Shown here in pieces: positions 24,659-30,900 of a stretch of 64,000 nt of DNA. The notes beneath the pieces were generated by a model. That model worked only from the letters and a program-made list of their open reading frames with translations. It was not told where the DNA came from and made no database searches. A program made the translations under genes and the position numbers. The first letter of the stretch is position 1; each line of letters begins with the position of its first letter. The stretch is from contig JABDRB010000029.1 in assembly GCA_013041925.1 (NCBI GenBank), positions 1-64,000 of the forward strand, written 5' to 3'. This DNA comes from Akkermansiaceae bacterium. Its GTDB lineage: Bacteria; Verrucomicrobiota; Verrucomicrobiia; Verrucomicrobiales; Akkermansiaceae.

Positions 24659-24663
24659 TTTTT

Positions 24664-24683
24664 ACCCAACGTCTTGTTCAATC
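24664..24683 (-). repeat. Collapsed attC remnant C
   Basis: On the minus strand, R''-like ATTGAAC plus AAGAC runs straight into ACGTTGGGT, an R'-like box (GTTGGGT fits GTTRRRY). The whole central hairpin region of an attC is missing. It lies exactly where the attC of the AbrB-PIN cassette should be, between that gene pair and the next cassette. Confidence 0.4.
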
Positions 24684-25327: not shown

Positions 25328-25382
25328 ACCGAACGTAAACTGTGGCACGGCTTTAGCCGTTGCCACCACTGCCTTGTTGGGC
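25328..25382 (-). repeat. attC site D (short, 55 bp, near-perfect hairpin)
   Basis: Minus strand: R'' GCCCAAC (fits RYYYAAC), AAGGCAG, a stem of about 11 bp (GTGGCAACGGCT / AGCCGTGCCAC) with one bulged base and a 4-base loop region, then R' GTTCGGT. The bulge and the short imperfect stem are what integrase recognises in folded single-stranded attC. The 3' end of the FkbM gene lies inside it. Confidence 0.9.
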
Positions 25383-26255
25383 CTTTTTTTTGGATATTTC
25401 GACTGCCTGTGGATTCTCGATGGAATGGTGTTTAGCAACAATCAATCCATCATATGAAAAAGTCTCTTTCATGTCAGCGTCAGCTAGAATGACATATCCG
25501 AAAGATTTCAGCTTCTCGATGCAGTCAATGTGGAGCTTAGTTGAGTGAGTTGATATAAAAACGAAATCCGCATTTCCTTTTGTCAGTAGATTGCTGGCTC
25601 CTTCGAGCATAGCCAACTCGTAACCCTGGATATCTGAGTGAAGCATATGCAGATGGTCTATATTGTGTTCTCTGCAAAACGAATCTACGGAAATAGTTCT
25701 AGGGTTATCTTTTGGACTTCTGTCGACACTCGCTTGAGTGAAAATGCCTTTCCTTCCGTTTAAGCGAAAGTTTATTCTTCCACTAATCAGGTTCTGTGTC
25801 TCTGGCTCGACCAAGAAACAAGTTGCTTTAGGCCTCTGCTGCAAAAGCGATAAAGAATAAAAGCCCCAGTAAGCTCCTAGCTCAAGCATTACGCACTGAT
25901 CCGGAAGTAGACGGATAATTTCTTCAAATGCTCGTTCTTCCTGAGGTTCGTGAACTCCCTTGTTTTCTATCAACATATTCAGAATTCCGGCACCATAGTA
26001 TCCGTTTGCACAAACCCGCACGTCGTTATGCATCGTGATCGTATAGCCTTTAAGTTGACCCGCACTTGGGTGTCGAGGAATGTGAGCATTGTCGGGTGAT
26101 GAAATCACGTCATCGATCCTATCGCGCCAGTAGCTGTCGACTTTACCCACGGCATTCGCTGCAATGCTTGAAGATGTTAAACTATTTCTTGAACGAACTC
26201 GCCTAAGTTGCTCGAGGAGAGGGGTTGGTATTAGTCGCTTTATTAGTTGTTTCAT
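25353..26255 (-). CDS. FkbM-family SAM-dependent methyltransferase
   Basis: A 300-residue protein when started at the ATG at 26255. The frame runs on to 26285, but that part lies in the preceding attC site. SAM-binding motif I is VMLELGAYWGFYSLSLL, followed by FLVEPE (motif II acidic) and the FkbM signature HSDIQGYELAMLEGA. An additional helical N-terminus (IKRLIPTPLLEQLRRVRSRN) precedes it. FkbM enzymes O-methylate sugars, polyketides or glycans; this one may modify a surface polysaccharide. The last dozen residues (KKKAQQGSGGNG) are encoded by the attC hairpin itself, indicating read-in after cassette formation. It is the largest single-gene cassette apart from mrr. Confidence 0.85.
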   Translation of the reverse strand: MKQLIKRLIPTPLLEQLRRVRSRNSLTSSSIAANAVGKVDSYWRDRIDDVISSPDNAHIPRHPSAGQLKGYTITMHNDVRVCANGYYGAGILNMLIENKGVHEPQEERAFEEIIRLLPDQCVMLELGAYWGFYSLSLLQQRPKATCFLVEPETQNLISGRINFRLNGRKGIFTQASVDRSPKDNPRTISVDSFCREHNIDHLHMLHSDIQGYELAMLEGASNLLTKGNADFVFISTHSTKLHIDCIEKLKSFGYVILADADMKETFSYDGLIVAKHHSIENPQAVEISKKKAQQGSGGNG

Positions 26256-26267
26256 TTTTCTTTTATA

Positions 26268-26392
26268 GCCGAACGTAAAGCTCACTGGCGGCGATGAAAC
26301 CGATGATGAGCGATTAAAGTTTTAATTTGTAGAACAGCCGAAAAACCTGACAACTTAGCCACTAGCCTTCGAGTGCAGCGTCTTGTTCTGCT
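26268..26392 (-). repeat. attC site E (about 125 bp, VCR-like)
   Basis: Plus-strand ends: GCCGAACGTAAAG and GCGTCTTGTTCTGC, giving minus-strand R'' GCAGAAC and R' GTTCGGC. It is closely similar over its whole length to site F and more distantly to A and B. The length and internal similarity recall the long repeats of Vibrio chromosomal integrons. Confidence 0.8.
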
Positions 26393-26398
26393 GGTTTT

Positions 26399-26656
26399 TT
26401 AGTAGTGGTATCTTGCCTGAGCCACTTGAATGATGTCGTCGCAAACTCGATATACCAATCTGTGCTCATCATTTATCCGCCTAGACCAGAACCCAGAAAA
26501 AGCATGCTTTAGAGGCTCCGGCTTCCCGATTCCCTCATATGGATTGTCTCGACCAATATCAGATAAAAGAGCGTTAATTTTTTTAACCAGTCTACGATCG
26601 TATTGCTGCCAATGGGTATAATCCTCCCAAGCTCGGTCAGAAAATTGGACATTCAT
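26399..26656 (-). CDS. YoeB-family mRNA interferase toxin
   Basis: An 85-residue RelE-fold toxin with strong YoeB features: VQFSDRAWEDYTHWQQYDRRLVKKINALL at the N-terminus, PLKHAFSGFWSRRINDEHRLVYRV in the centre, and a C-terminal ARYHY, the family's catalytic end. It would cut mRNA at the ribosomal A site. It overlaps the YefM-like antitoxin by 4 bp, and the pair forms one cassette bounded by sites F and E. Confidence 0.93.
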   Translation of the reverse strand: MNVQFSDRAWEDYTHWQQYDRRLVKKINALLSDIGRDNPYEGIGKPEPLKHAFSGFWSRRINDEHRLVYRVCDDIIQVAQARYHY

Positions 26657-26910
26657 AGTAACTCATCCAAGCTCTTTACAACGCCCTGCCCCTTCTCAAG
26701 CTGAGAAATGCCTTCCGAAAGCCTAGTAGCGTTCTTAGGCGAACGTAATAGGTAAGCAGTCTCTTGTAGAGACTCATAGTCTTCCAAAGAAACCATTACC
26801 ACTGCTTGATCACGCTTACGAGTAATGATCACAGGGTCGTGATCCTCGCAAACCTGACTCATTGTAGAAGCGAGATTTTCTCTTGCTGCGGTATAAGTCA
26901 TAGCTTTCAT
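26653..26910 (-). CDS. YefM-family antitoxin
   Basis: An 85-residue protein beginning MKAMTYTAARENLASTMSQV with the conserved ITRKRDQAVVMVSLEDYESLQETAYLLRSPKN block, typical of YefM. The C-terminus would fold over the YoeB toxin. It sits upstream of the toxin with a 4-bp overlap, so translation is coupled. It likely represses its own promoter together with the toxin. Confidence 0.93.
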   Translation of the reverse strand: MKAMTYTAARENLASTMSQVCEDHDPVIITRKRDQAVVMVSLEDYESLQETAYLLRSPKNATRLSEGISQLEKGQGVVKSLDELL

Positions 26911-26953: not shown

Positions 26954-27079
26954 GCCGAACGTAAAGTTCGCCCGCGGCGATGAAACCGCAGATGAGATGA
27001 TTAAAGTTTCAATTCTGATTAACAGCCACACATCTGACACTGCAGCTACTAGCCGTCGAGTGCAGCGTCTTGTTGAACA
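26954..27079 (-). repeat. attC site F (about 126 bp, VCR-like)
   Basis: Plus-strand ends: GCCGAACGTAAAG and GCGTCTTGTTGAAC. The minus-strand R' is GTTCGGC; the R'' end has diverged. The interior matches site E nearly base for base, including the CGGCGATGAAACCG and CTAGCC-TCGAGTGCAGCG blocks. It closes the cassette that carries the IS91-type remnant. Confidence 0.8.
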
Positions 27080-27676: not shown

Positions 27677-27800
27677 ACAGAACTAGCCGCCTGCGTCTGC
27701 TCCACCCAACCATGGGCCGGTTCAACAACCGATAGCTCTCATGCTCCGCTATCGCTCCGATAAGAAGCTATCTTTGGGGTTGGGTTTGTTTTGTTAGAAC
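27677..27800 (-). repeat. attC-like site G (about 124 bp)
   Basis: Minus strand begins with an R''-like TTCTAACAA, contains nested inverted repeats (ACCCAACC/GGTTGGGT and GATAGC/GCTATC), and ends with R'-like GTTCTGT. The terminal boxes fit the consensus only partly. It directly follows the YafQ gene, whose stop codon lies in the R'' box. Confidence 0.65.
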
Positions 27801-28057
27801 AAGTCTGAATGTGTGCCCGTCCGCCCTAGAGTAAGGGACTCTGGAGTCAACTTATACAGCAACAGCCAATCAGGTTCGATATGACAATCTCTCCATCCAT
27901 TCCAATTACCGCTCAGCCCATGATCGAGATAGCGTTGTGGCATTACTTCGCCAGAAACCAAAAGATCGATCACTTCTTTTAGCTTAACGAGATCCTTCCC
28001 CCGCTTCTTCTGTCGTTTGACGTCCTTCTTAAATGCGGACGGCTGAATTACCCTCAT
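27794..28057 (-). CDS. YafQ-family mRNA interferase toxin
   Basis: An 87-residue RelE-superfamily toxin with YafQ-type features: PSAFKKDVKRQKKRGKDLVKLKEVIDLL at the N-terminus, LDHGLSGNWNGWRDCHIEPDWLLLYK with the catalytic histidine and arginine region, and LGRTGTHSDLF at the C-terminus. YafQ cuts mRNA in translating ribosomes. It overlaps the DinJ-type antitoxin stop by 1 bp. The stop codon falls within the R'' box of the downstream attC. Confidence 0.93.
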   Translation of the reverse strand: MRVIQPSAFKKDVKRQKKRGKDLVKLKEVIDLLVSGEVMPQRYLDHGLSGNWNGWRDCHIEPDWLLLYKLTPESLTLGRTGTHSDLF

Positions 28058-28314
28058 TAGTCCCAGGAAGCGTAAAGGTCATCAGTGTTGTCGAAGGTCT
28101 CGATATCCTCGCCGCGATCAGCCTTAGCTAAAGCGGCGGCAGTCTCCACGTTGGGGATACGCAATTCAACGGGGAATTCGCCCCTCATGGCAATCTGACG
28201 ATAAAGCAGTCGGATCGCTTCGGTCGGCGTGATACCTAGGGCATCAAGCACTCTTTCGGTTGCAGCCTTCGTATCTGGATCAATACGGGCATGTATGACA
28301 GCAGTCTGGGACAT
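28057..28314 (-). CDS. DinJ/RelB-family antitoxin
   Basis: An 85-residue ribbon-helix-helix protein: AVIHARIDPDTKAATERVLDALGITPTEAIRLLYRQIAMRGEFPVEL matches the RelB/DinJ N-terminal DNA-binding domain. The acidic C-terminal part (RGEDIETFDNTDDLYASWD) would bind YafQ. A 7-bp inverted repeat lies just upstream and is the likely autoregulatory operator. Together with YafQ it forms one cassette. Confidence 0.93.
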   Translation of the reverse strand: MSQTAVIHARIDPDTKAATERVLDALGITPTEAIRLLYRQIAMRGEFPVELRIPNVETAAALAKADRGEDIETFDNTDDLYASWD

Positions 28315-28359: not shown

Positions 28360-28429
28360 GCTGAACGTGGAGGTGTATCACGGAGAGGAGCGCAGCGACA
28401 CGGAGTTGATACCACCGCCTTGTTGTGCC
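28360..28429 (-). repeat. attC site H (70 bp)
   Basis: Minus strand: R'' GCACAAC, AAGGCGG, a stem pairing GGTGGTATCAA with TGATACACC and CTCCGTG with its partner, then ACGTTCAGC with R' GTTCAGC. It has the compact hairpin form of classical attC sites and follows the mrr gene without a gap. Confidence 0.85.
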
Positions 28430-29350
28430 TTAGTTTTCTTCAAAGTAGTCGGAGTCGATTTTTTTCAATTCGTAAATCCCTGATGTAGAGACTCCAACAG
28501 AGTGCTCAAACATTAGTGATGAAAGTCTTTCGCCATCCATGAGTATAATCTTGGAATCTATCATACTGACATACTCCAGCGCTTGACTTGAGAAGCTAGA
28601 AGTAGTGATGAATATTCCTTTTCTCGCTCTCTGCCCTTGGAGGGCTCCTGCGAATTTCTGGATTTCTGGTCTACCTACACTTCCTTCCCATCTCTTTGCT
28701 TGAAGGTAAATTACATCTAAACCTAATTTATCTTCGTTGATGATACCATCGATTCCTCCATCACCGCTTTTGCCGATCGCTCTGCCAGCATCAGATCGAC
28801 TGCCTCCATATCCCATACGCACGATTAGATCGATCACCAGTCTTTCGAAGAAAGCTGGGGATGAATTCATAATATTCTCAAGAATTTCTTTTTGAATTCC
28901 AGACTTTATCGTCCTGTATGCTGATGCAATTTGATCTTCGGGAGTTTGGTCTGAATCTATTGTTGTTTCGATTGTATCAGTTGATTGGGTGTCATCCTTT
29001 TTCTTTTTTCTGTTTTTGAAATCTTGAAACTCCTCAAACTGCTCAAGCACTGAATTATCAATTCTGGAGATACCAGAACCCAATAATTCCTTTCCTCTTG
29101 GAGTGATTTGAAAGAAACCACGTTTGGGTGAATCTAGTAAACCAGCTTGCTTGAGGTATGATCGTGCCCAGCCGACTCTATTATCAAAAACTGCTTGTGA
29201 TCCACTTGGTAATAGTTCTCTTCTCTCCTCATCTGTGAGTGAAAATTCATCAGCTAGTATTTCTATCGAATCCCTAAATTTGTGGGTGTTCCCATCCTCT
29301 GATATTTTCAGGACTGGAAGCATTAAGGTTTGGTAATCGGGAATGGGCAT
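28430..29350 (-). CDS. mrr: Mrr-type restriction endonuclease
   Basis: A 306-residue protein with the two-domain layout of Mrr. The N-terminal winged-helix Mrr_N domain (about 1-95) includes DEERRELLPSGSQAVFDNRVGWARSYLKQAGLL. A charged linker follows, then the catalytic Mrr_cat domain: FFERLVIDLIVRMGYGG, the active-site GDGGIDGIINEDKLGLDVIYLQAKRW (D and QxK of the PD-(D/E)XK fold), and GIFITTSSFSSQALEY. Mrr cuts DNA carrying certain modified bases and is therefore a phage- or modification-dependent defence enzyme. No methyltransferase partner is present, as expected for type IV enzymes. It is a single-gene cassette between attC sites I and H. Confidence 0.95.
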   Translation of the reverse strand: MPIPDYQTLMLPVLKISEDGNTHKFRDSIEILADEFSLTDEERRELLPSGSQAVFDNRVGWARSYLKQAGLLDSPKRGFFQITPRGKELLGSGISRIDNSVLEQFEEFQDFKNRKKKKDDTQSTDTIETTIDSDQTPEDQIASAYRTIKSGIQKEILENIMNSSPAFFERLVIDLIVRMGYGGSRSDAGRAIGKSGDGGIDGIINEDKLGLDVIYLQAKRWEGSVGRPEIQKFAGALQGQRARKGIFITTSSFSSQALEYVSMIDSKIILMDGERLSSLMFEHSVGVSTSGIYELKKIDSDYFEEN

Positions 29351-29363
29351 TATATTTTATTTT

Positions 29364-29491
29364 ACTCAACGTCCTAGCATAGCCACCACCTACGGAGAGG
29401 GCGAATGTGAACGAAGAGGTTGATGTTGTAATTAAGGAAAAACTTGGCAGAAAAGGCGCCGTAGGGGGTTGGCTGCTGAGACTTGTTAGGC
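29364..29491 (-). repeat. attC site I (128 bp)
   Basis: Minus strand: R'' GCCTAAC and R' GTTGAGT, both exact matches to the RYYYAAC and GTTRRRY consensus. Internal inverted repeats pair CAGCAGCCAACCCCCTACGG with CCGTAGGTGGTGGCTATG. The stop codon of the preceding gene is inside R''. Its R'' is exactly complementary to the R' half at the start of the same cassette (site J). Confidence 0.9.
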
Positions 29492-30007
29492 ATTTTTATT
29501 GTCTAGTTCGATGGCGGATAAGATTAGGTCCCATTGATCCTCATATTGTTCTAACTCTGAAATACTGATCGAGCAATGAGTGGATTTAGGTGCTCTGGGT
29601 CTTATGCCTCCATGCTTCTTGAGGTATGCTGTATGATGAGCTACTATTACGTCAGATAGTTCCTGCCAAGAAAATACAAAAAATCTATCTGTTTTACTAT
29701 TCTCACCTAGAGCGACAAAAACACAATATAAATTAGGGTATGGCTCTTTAGCAGGATCACCCAGAATCTGTTGATCACCGTTCATTGTGATCTCGACATA
29801 TTTACTAGCATCGAATTGCCAGTTAAGCTTATTGATCGCTTTGACTTGTATAACTAAGTGACCTCCATAATCATCTGAGGCGATGATGTCATAATGCGGA
29901 ACATTACCAGAAAATGGTGTAGAGAGTAAACCTCTTCGGCAAAGTTCAGCTGAAACTAAAAACTCTCCGATTGCTCCTGTTAATTTTGTGCTTCGTCCTG
30001 TTGCCAT
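29486..30007 (-). CDS. Predicted PD-(D/E)XK-like protein (cassette gene)
   Basis: A 173-residue protein. The N-terminal half carries a PD-(D/E)XK-like arrangement: GAIGEFLVSAELCRRGLL (possible E), HYDIIASDDYGGHLVIQVKAIN (D, then Q-x-K). This resembles small nuclease-like proteins often found as integron cassettes. The C-terminal half (RFFVFSWQELSDVIVAHHTAYLKKHGG) is not recognised. No signal peptide. Its cassette start (TTAGGC in site J) and end (GCCTAAC in site I) are exactly complementary, a mark of an intact cassette. A role in DNA defence or repair is inferred only from the fold pattern. Confidence 0.65.
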   Translation of the reverse strand: MATGRSTKLTGAIGEFLVSAELCRRGLLSTPFSGNVPHYDIIASDDYGGHLVIQVKAINKLNWQFDASKYVEITMNGDQQILGDPAKEPYPNLYCVFVALGENSKTDRFFVFSWQELSDVIVAHHTAYLKKHGGIRPRAPKSTHCSISISELEQYEDQWDLILSAIELDNKNA

Positions 30008-30044: not shown

Positions 30045-30171
30045 GCCTAACGTCTGAGTCCACGCGGTCGCTGACCAACTGCGCACTCCGACTGGGGTTA
30101 AGACTTATTAATCACAAAAAGAGCTCGAAAACAACAGCGGGGAAGCGATCGCGTGCGACGCCTTGTTCGCC
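30045..30171 (-). repeat. attC site J (127 bp)
   Basis: Minus strand: R'' GGCGAAC, AAGGCGTCGCACGCG, inner arms, then CGCGTGGACTCAGAC and R' GTTAGGC (exact consensus). Outer arms pair through GCGCACGC/GCGTG-type complementarity. The R'' is exactly complementary to the R' (GTTCGCC) of site K, which starts the same cassette. Confidence 0.88.
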
Positions 30172-30178
30172 AATTTTG

Positions 30179-30550
30179 TTAAAATATGCCTGTCTTGATC
30201 TCTGGTGTCGAATCAGTGAAAGTGTAATCCTTCACTCGGTCTTGCTCATCAAAGGTCACCATCAGCATCTGTTGTCTCATATCTATTCCTCCGCTGAATG
30301 CTCCAACGATGGGGATGAAATTTTGAGCTTTGTTCTTAACTGTGTTGTGGTGCCACATTGCAGTCTTAGTTCCTCCCTGAATTCCTACATTCATTGGGGG
30401 GCCAAATTGGGCTATTAAATCGCTCCTAGTAGTTTGTCCCTTCTTGATTTGCTGGACTTGAGAAGAGTTCATCTCTGTGCCGACAGAAGCACAGCTAGTC
30501 ATGCCTATAAGGCACAGAAGTGAGGAGAGTAAGATTAGCGTAATTTTCAT
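30179..30550 (-). CDS. SmpA/OmlA-like small lipoprotein (cassette gene)
   Basis: A 123-residue lipoprotein: signal with lipobox GMTSC (C20), then a BamE/SmpA-like fold pattern, QIKKGQTTRSDLIAQFGPPMNVGIQGGTKTAMWHH, in which 'I-xxGxT-xxdlxxxfGxP' is the hallmark, and QMLMVTFDEQDRVKDYTFTDS as the closing strands. BamE-like proteins support outer-membrane assembly, but many small relatives have unknown roles. Its start codon overlaps the stop of a possible 42-codon ORF upstream (TAATG). Confidence 0.78.
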   Translation of the reverse strand: MKITLILLSSLLCLIGMTSCASVGTEMNSSQVQQIKKGQTTRSDLIAQFGPPMNVGIQGGTKTAMWHHNTVKNKAQNFIPIVGAFSGGIDMRQQMLMVTFDEQDRVKDYTFTDSTPEIKTGIF

Positions 30551-30763: not shown

Positions 30764-30900
30764 GGCGAACGTTCAAGTGCAGCTAGGCTGGACGCCTCAG
30801 TGCACTCCACCACATCTACCACGCCCAAATTTCCTGTCAATAAGTTACCCACCAGAGCGGTCGAGAGCGGTCGGACTTAGCTGGCACGCCTTGTTCGCCC
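30764..30900 (-). repeat. attC site K (137 bp)
   Basis: Minus strand: R'' GGCGAAC preceded by G, AAGGCGTGCCAGCTAAGTCC, inner arms, then AGCCTAGCTGCACTTGAAC and R' GTTCGCC. Arms CCAGCTA/TAGCTGCA and CGACCGCTCTCGACC give internal hairpins. It closes the array on its high-coordinate side. Confidence 0.85.

Follow-up and report, generated by a model that had tools for sequence, protein, structure and literature searches.

The stretch of DNA analysed here (64,000 nucleotides of a contig from an Akkermansiaceae bacterium; hereafter, the window) carries on its minus strand an array of small genes separated by attC-type recombination sites. Two neighbouring cassettes of this array encode an Mrr-type restriction endonuclease and a stand-alone protein of 173 residues with a predicted nuclease fold. 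The features are given by their positions in the window.

25328-25382, minus strand: attC of the FkbM-methyltransferase cassette
25353-26285, minus strand: FkbM methyltransferase gene (Pfam Methyltransf_21)
26268-26391, minus strand: attC of the yefM-yoeB cassette
26399-26910, minus strand: cassette of the YefM/Phd antitoxin (26653-26910) and the YoeB toxin (26399-26656) (Pfam)
26954-27078, minus strand: attC upstream of yefM-yoeB
27794-28314, minus strand: RelB antitoxin (28057-28314) and YafQ toxin (27794-28057) (Pfam); no clear attC directly after
28360-28428, minus strand: short-form attC of the Mrr cassette; the pattern matches exactly here and at one other place in the genome
28430-29350, minus strand: Mrr-type (type IV) restriction endonuclease, 306 residues (Pfam, PADLOC, motif positions)
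29364-29491, minus strand: attC of the 173-residue cassette, R'' overlapping the stop codon; above 100 of 100 shuffles; resembles the attC of relative L002
29486-30007, minus strand: stand-alone protein of 173 residues, predicted PD-(D/E)XK fold, QxK variant (AlphaFold2 model, Foldseek, VIA-align, conservation)
29963-29965, 29888-29890, 29846-29848 and 29840-29842, minus strand: its predicted catalytic codons E15, D40, Q54 and K56, respectively
30045-30171, minus strand: attC of the cassette upstream of the 173-residue gene; above 100 of 100 shuffles
30179-30550, minus strand: BamE-like lipoprotein cassette, 123 residues (Pfam BamE 1.2e-4, 22.3 bits against a cut-off of 23.2; PHROG 3135, 1.6e-18)
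30764-30899, minus strand: attC upstream of the BamE-like cassette

Architecture of the cassette array

Ten proteins of the array were scanned, all of them encoded on the minus strand: the two nucleases, RelB-YafQ, YefM-YoeB, a PIN protein, the FkbM methyltransferase, the BamE-like lipoprotein and an unassigned protein of 152 residues. Integron arrays commonly carry toxin-antitoxin modules as passengers. Seven clear attC sites have the paired ends AACAAG ... ACGTT and outer arms that are partly complementary; since the sites were picked by these ends, the identity of the aligned ends is partly a matter of choice. Two further sites, at ~24.1 and 23.5 kb, are degenerate, and one attC between two cassettes (24663-24680) has collapsed to ~18 bases, as if its arms had been deleted.

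The attC pattern matched 11 times on the minus strand and 5 times on the plus strand of the window, compared to ~2.9 matches per strand (maximum 8) after shuffling, and 8 of the 11 minus-strand matches fall within 24.5-30.9 kb (i.e., 6.4 of the 64 kb). A first palindrome scanner was unspecific, yielding 12 minus-strand and 13 plus-strand matches in the window, with five of those 12 corresponding to array sites. Folding of the seven sites as single-stranded DNA gave z-scores between -1.7 and +1.1 (three of them positive) and was no better than for shuffled sequences. Because of these weak folding scores and the unspecific scanner, our attC calls rely on end conservation, clustering and position between open reading frames, not on fold energy. 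A structured attC model recovered two of its own seven training sites from the window in full and four as short pieces, and missed one; it gave one match outside the window array and nothing convincing on 32 relative loci, where it fails because the attC ends differ between species.

The array has the form of a CALIN, i.e., open reading frames in one orientation with attC sites and no adjacent integrase, the exceptions being relB-yafQ and the collapsed and degenerate sites. Two integron integrases, one on contig C7 and one on C11, scored above the TIGR02249 cut-off, with partial matches below it on C7 and C28; the same search gave no match on the window's own contig (C17). As the C7 integrase match begins 443 bases from a contig end, part of an array may be absent from the assembly. 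Another attC-like site of the same type was observed elsewhere in the genome (G000:C31:64727-64794; L098), and a second cassette cluster may therefore exist.

The Mrr gene is, as read from its sequence, a classical, complete type IV restriction enzyme. Both domains are present (Mrr_N, 2.4e-34; Mrr_cat, 2e-35; Pfam), the PADLOC model mREase_IV matches residues 1-304 of 306 (2.6e-99), and the D...QxK site is intact, with GDGGIDG at residues 196-202 (28745-28765) and QAKRW at residues 217-221 (28688-28702). These matches in a complete gene agree with the first-pass annotation of this stretch, which had described an intact GDGGIDG...QAKRW active site and had placed a second nuclease-like protein in the neighbouring cassette. 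The cassette arrangement holds as well: each of the two genes is followed by an attC-type site, and the 173-residue gene is also preceded by one, both sites around the latter being shuffle-tested.

Fold, conservation and family of the 173-residue protein

The AlphaFold2 model of the 173-residue protein, built from a 19-row alignment, reached a mean pLDDT of 92.6 and a pTM of 0.86. A Foldseek search ranked four chains of I-Ssp6803I first (E-values of 7e-6 to 6e-5; TM-score of ~0.5 by query length), followed by Hjc and SPARDA chains. In VIA-align, I-Ssp6803I superposed with a Z-score of 12.9 and an rmsd of 4.5 over 133 aligned residues (23% identity); the runners-up were SPARDA DREN (Z 9.6) and an Hjc-type enzyme (Z 9.4), which we count as tied. 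I-Ssp6803I has QxK residues in its active site. In the 173-residue protein, the core fold (predicted model against PDB structures) coincides with conserved acidic and lysine residues of a predicted catalytic site, and a PD-(D/E)XK nuclease fold is well supported by the model. I-Ssp6803I itself is described as a PD-(D/E)XK enzyme in PMC1995217, and PMC12205087 gives D41, Q60 and K62 as the catalytic residues of DREN and reports its similarity to I-Ssp6803I.

At the sequence level, the protein carries E15 within GEF, D40, and QVK at positions 54-56. Among 35 aligned family proteins with identities down to 31%, D40, Q54 and K56 are each kept in 35 and E15 in 34, the sole exception being L018. Such conservation lifts the GEF...D...QVK pattern beyond chance, and the copy in the window is complete and retains each of the four catalytic residues. 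The first-pass annotation had pointed out this pattern and had made its proposal depend on a nuclease-like fold and on conservation of the residues in homologues; comparison of the predicted structure with known folds (AlphaFold2, Foldseek, VIA-align) and the family alignment bear it out in both respects.

When one genome per species was scanned, 21 family loci came up in at least 10 phyla or candidate phyla. The window protein and those of 18 of the 21 loci constitute the 19-protein alignment, which contains 33 invariant columns; the three relatives left out (L018, L021 and L022) are broken or lack E15. The broken copy at L022 (4576-4758) is 91% identical to the window protein over its first 33 residues and then continues into unrelated sequence. 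At L011 (5001-6090), two diverged family members are arranged in tandem (profile match 1.1e-19). Overall, the family is patchy: it was found in 3 of 98 relatives, including the own genome and one partial match of 60 residues, in 12 of 296 genomes of another phylum sample, two of the 12 being known before, and in 1 of 392 genomes of a third sample, which is the centre genome itself. dN/dS was computed on ten gene pairs, six of them saturated. The four with finite dS (0.17, 0.45, 2.03 and 1.14) yielded dN/dS of 0.041, 0.071, 0.076 and 0.126, respectively; the pair of window and L002 was saturated (pS 0.755, pN 0.182).

Judged by sequence searches, the family is without a name in Pfam (at the cut-off), PADLOC, NCBIfam and PHROGs. 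The only Pfam match of the 173-residue protein at E ≤ 1 was PDDEXK_5 (PF11645; E-value 0.005), whose 17.3 bits lie under the gathering cut-off of 26.1 and thus outside membership; the same model matched 13 of the 19 family members at E ≤ 0.1 (best 9.5e-4). Scans with PADLOC and NCBIfam returned nothing at E ≤ 1, in line with the earlier statement that the protein belongs to no known defence family, and the PHROGs matches were weak, to three families without an assigned function (best 7.8e-5). Sequence searches of the PDB, with the single protein or the family profile, produced chance-like matches only. Phage records gave no match at E ≤ 1e-3, and a plasmid search gave two weak ones. A literature search on integrons and nucleases gave no description of the family among the matches listed, which does not prove its absence.

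Genomic contexts of the relatives

Cassette placement was assessed by a palindrome scan with 100 shuffles per side at 31 loci (62 sides). Six loci (the window, L002, L008, L009, L012 and L021) scored above every shuffle on at least one side; p-values of 0.01 to 0.05 on further sides (L006, L014, L015, L017, L018 and L087) are at about chance level for 62 sides. Together with L015, placed by eye, and L082, where the gene lies between near-identical direct repeats of 125 bp with attC-like ends, 8 of 31 loci are cassette-like, the others being without attC by these means. At L020 (4900-5610), the family gene is flanked on both sides by diverged direct repeats of ~97 bases that are not recognisably attC.

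The homologous cassette at L002 is likewise followed by an Mrr gene. Its attC and that of the window's 173-residue cassette are identical in 93 of 135 columns (score 37.5; shuffle maximum 6.5), compared to scores of 4.0 to 7.5 for four other window sites against the L002 site, and the genes beyond the shared cassettes differ by eye. Since the two sites are alike and the outer genes are different, family gene and attC appear to share descent as one cassette. Of the mobile defence-type set proposed in the first-pass annotation, the mobile cassettes stand on attC sites, shuffles and the L002 homologue, and the defence role of the 173-residue protein is a reading of its context; joint action of the toxin-antitoxin modules and the nucleases as one set would be a supposition.

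Mrr_cat was matched 22 times in 22 genomes (98 Mb) and lies within 5 kb of a family gene in 4 of the 22 (G000, G098, G104 and G110), where 0.05 are expected by density. The Poisson tail is 3e-7 for four cases and 2e-5 for three, the latter being the fairer figure if window and L002 count as one event; three Mrr neighbours had been seen before the density was measured, and ten family-positive genomes lie outside the density control. A neighbour scan that takes in loci of nine of those ten found Mrr_cat in only 2 of 148 proteins within 3.5 kb (L002 and L015). The Mrr at L009 is interrupted by another open reading frame, and the one at L015 is only 27% identical. These data show co-location with Mrr-family genes, not partnership, and the co-location may reflect only a clustering of defence genes. 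The gene order at L015 is a BrxL-type open reading frame (placed by its N-terminus), an open reading frame with a weak family match, Mrr and the family gene. The second of these, a short cassette open reading frame of 172 residues (L015:3320-3838; GAEYLV...YDLI...QVK), adjoins the Mrr cassette, its family-profile match being weak (probability 45.6).

Identified neighbours of relatives include, in the families listed, many housekeeping genes, such as those for RuBisCO, a chorismate enzyme, LepA and cytochrome c552. GmrSD_N and DpdF appear among the neighbour-protein families listed (best 25 of 134 and best 25 of 137), and a motif search to place these two in the family loci found none. At L086 (249-1228), the family gene lies beside an apparent truncated restriction-helicase fragment on the opposite strand side, as seen by eye. 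L003 contains a relative near an endolysin gene and L035 one near a holin gene.

A tape-measure gene and the gene after it flank the family gene, itself encoded on the opposite strand, at L016, L019 and L032-L034; the tape-measure gene of L019 has a PHROG tail match of 2e-72. Judging from L016 and L019, the hosts of this (pro)phage lineage are probably Verrucomicrobiota. Viral contigs with the gene after the tape-measure gene numbered 64, with both flanks present in 62, and near-duplicates may be included. Among these 62, the junction is empty in 55 (22-58 bases between the aligned ends) and holds the nuclease gene in three and other inserts in four (gaps of 342-2251 bases). In genome G111, the junction occurs three times, once with the nuclease and twice empty, and G1016 carries another insert at this position. 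One of the four other viral inserts, L132, is a recognised defence pair, consisting of a ShosA-type DprA (3e-71) together with a HAD protein that matches ShosT (5e-15), i.e., a ShosTA-like pair. By eye, the inserts of L143 and L145 were not identified as defence, and the open reading frame of the L148 insert had no match in Pfam and PADLOC. The latter (L148:3553-3945, 130 residues) may be another QxK nuclease by its E...D...QxK pattern as seen by eye, but it had no family match, a negative profile comparison and a poor model (pLDDT 52.6). A short repeat like TTCGGTTGA was noted by eye near both edges of the junction after the tape-measure gene (L099, L119, L159, L132, L143, L145 and L148). For a P2 hotspot, protection against T7 and lambda by DprA together with a PRTase is described in PMC9122126.

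The junction bears on an unlikely alternative, namely that the protein is a free-standing homing endonuclease, which would spread selfishly through cleavage of a conserved site close to where its gene is inserted and would not be protective. Its best fold match is indeed a homing endonuclease, the protein is highly conserved, and, in one phage lineage, its gene occupies precisely the junction that most contigs leave empty; in G111, two junctions are empty and one is occupied. However, the same junction accepts unrelated genes including the ShosTA-like pair, and a site that accepts at least one pair of defence type speaks for cargo rather than homing. Moreover, the insertion contexts vary between attC cassettes, the tail junction and the vicinity of endolysin or holin genes, so that no single target adjoins the family gene, and the window, when searched against Rfam at gathering score, gave no match that would mark the gene as intron-encoded.

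A candidate stand-alone anti-phage endonuclease

The reading that we favour, with a probability of roughly 0.55, is that of a single-gene, horizontally moving endonuclease directed against phage or other foreign DNA, the defence role being suggested by context. Nuclease activity as such is very probable from fold and residues. A one-gene anti-virus role gains probability because relatives occupy a phage insertion spot that also takes a known defence pair. Fold, conserved residues, low dN/dS, patchiness, Mrr proximity and the phage junction count in its favour; the moderate TM-score, the housekeeping neighbours, the lack of a PADLOC model and the single recognised defence pair among four inserts count against it. 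Restriction-type enzymes engaged in an arms race are expected to be less conserved than this protein.

In the mechanism that we propose, the attC cluster holds Mrr and, in the next cassette, a predicted I-Ssp6803I/DREN-like QxK endonuclease, which would most likely act as a dimer or tetramer. E15, D40 and Q54 would hold a metal ion, and K56 would help to activate water for the DNA cut. This metal-dependent cutting would be confined to a selective target, for which a modified base, a structure formed during phage replication or a long site of rare occurrence are candidates; as no methylase or antitoxin lies beside the gene, such selectivity is how the host would be spared. Host or prophage would gain an anti-phage benefit, and the gene would be passed from one bacterium to another both as an integron cassette and within prophages. 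An extended version, in which an undescribed, widespread single-gene anti-phage family alternates between integron cassettes and phage hotspots and forms, together with Mrr, two layers of screening for phage DNA that is modified or replicating, with both genes staying together through cassette shuffling, is put forward tentatively and strikes us as doubtful.

A junction-resolving or recombination nuclease of the Hjc/RecU kind, acting on branched DNA such as attC hairpins or recombination intermediates of integrons and phages, is quite improbable. Branched intermediates occur in integron and phage DNA, sequence conservation would suit a structure-specific enzyme, and Hjc is among the next best structures, level with DREN; yet I-Ssp6803I fits better (Z 12.9 versus 9.4), and only 8 of 31 loci show cassette placement. 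We judge it very unlikely that the gene is a passenger with a nuclease fold and no function in its present array, as might be argued from the mostly silent state of cassettes distant from a promoter, from a contig without an integrase above the cut-off and from the three relatives that are broken or lack E15, because the window copy is intact in length and catalytic residues, and both the substitutions relative to L002 and the dN/dS of 0.04-0.13 in four other pairs argue against it.

Should the anti-phage endonuclease reading be correct, a small unnamed nuclease family of many phyla would be a defence gene on integrons and phages alike, linking two mobile defence stores, and would offer a compact enzyme for studying host-sparing by a stand-alone nuclease. 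With its empty, nuclease and ShosTA-like alleles, the phage junction provides a direct means to separate defence from homing.

Compared to known systems, the Mrr cassette encodes a type IV Mrr enzyme with both domains and no sequence difference that we could see. The closest fold to the 173-residue protein is I-Ssp6803I (PDB 2ost), a homing endonuclease from a group I intron of Synechocystis; in contrast, the window has no Rfam match at gathering score, and the gene described here is integron cassette or phage cargo. With SPARDA DREN, the protein has the D...Q-x-K set in common. DREN is joined to APAZ and paired with a short Argonaute, whereas the 173-residue protein stands alone, and it was not assigned to SPARDA, having one weak Pfam match of its own and no Argonaute among the ten array proteins scanned. 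The PD-(D/E)XK core is common to the 173-residue protein and archaeal Hjc Holliday junction resolvases, which score 3.5 Z units under I-Ssp6803I. The phage junction resembles the defence hotspots of P2-like phages and P4-like satellites as described in PMC9122126, in that a fixed junction receives alternative cargo, here including a pair of the DprA and PRTase type; it differs from the hotspots described there in its phage lineage and in its position after the tape-measure gene. That integrons store anti-phage genes, among them restriction genes of types II and IV, is already set out in a review (PMC12409362), which refers to Darracq 2025, Kieffer 2025 and Getz 2025 for cassettes as anti-phage libraries. 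Like the cassettes described there, the array places small defence-type genes between attC sites; unlike them, the 173-residue family is not represented in any family library scanned and is carried by phages too.
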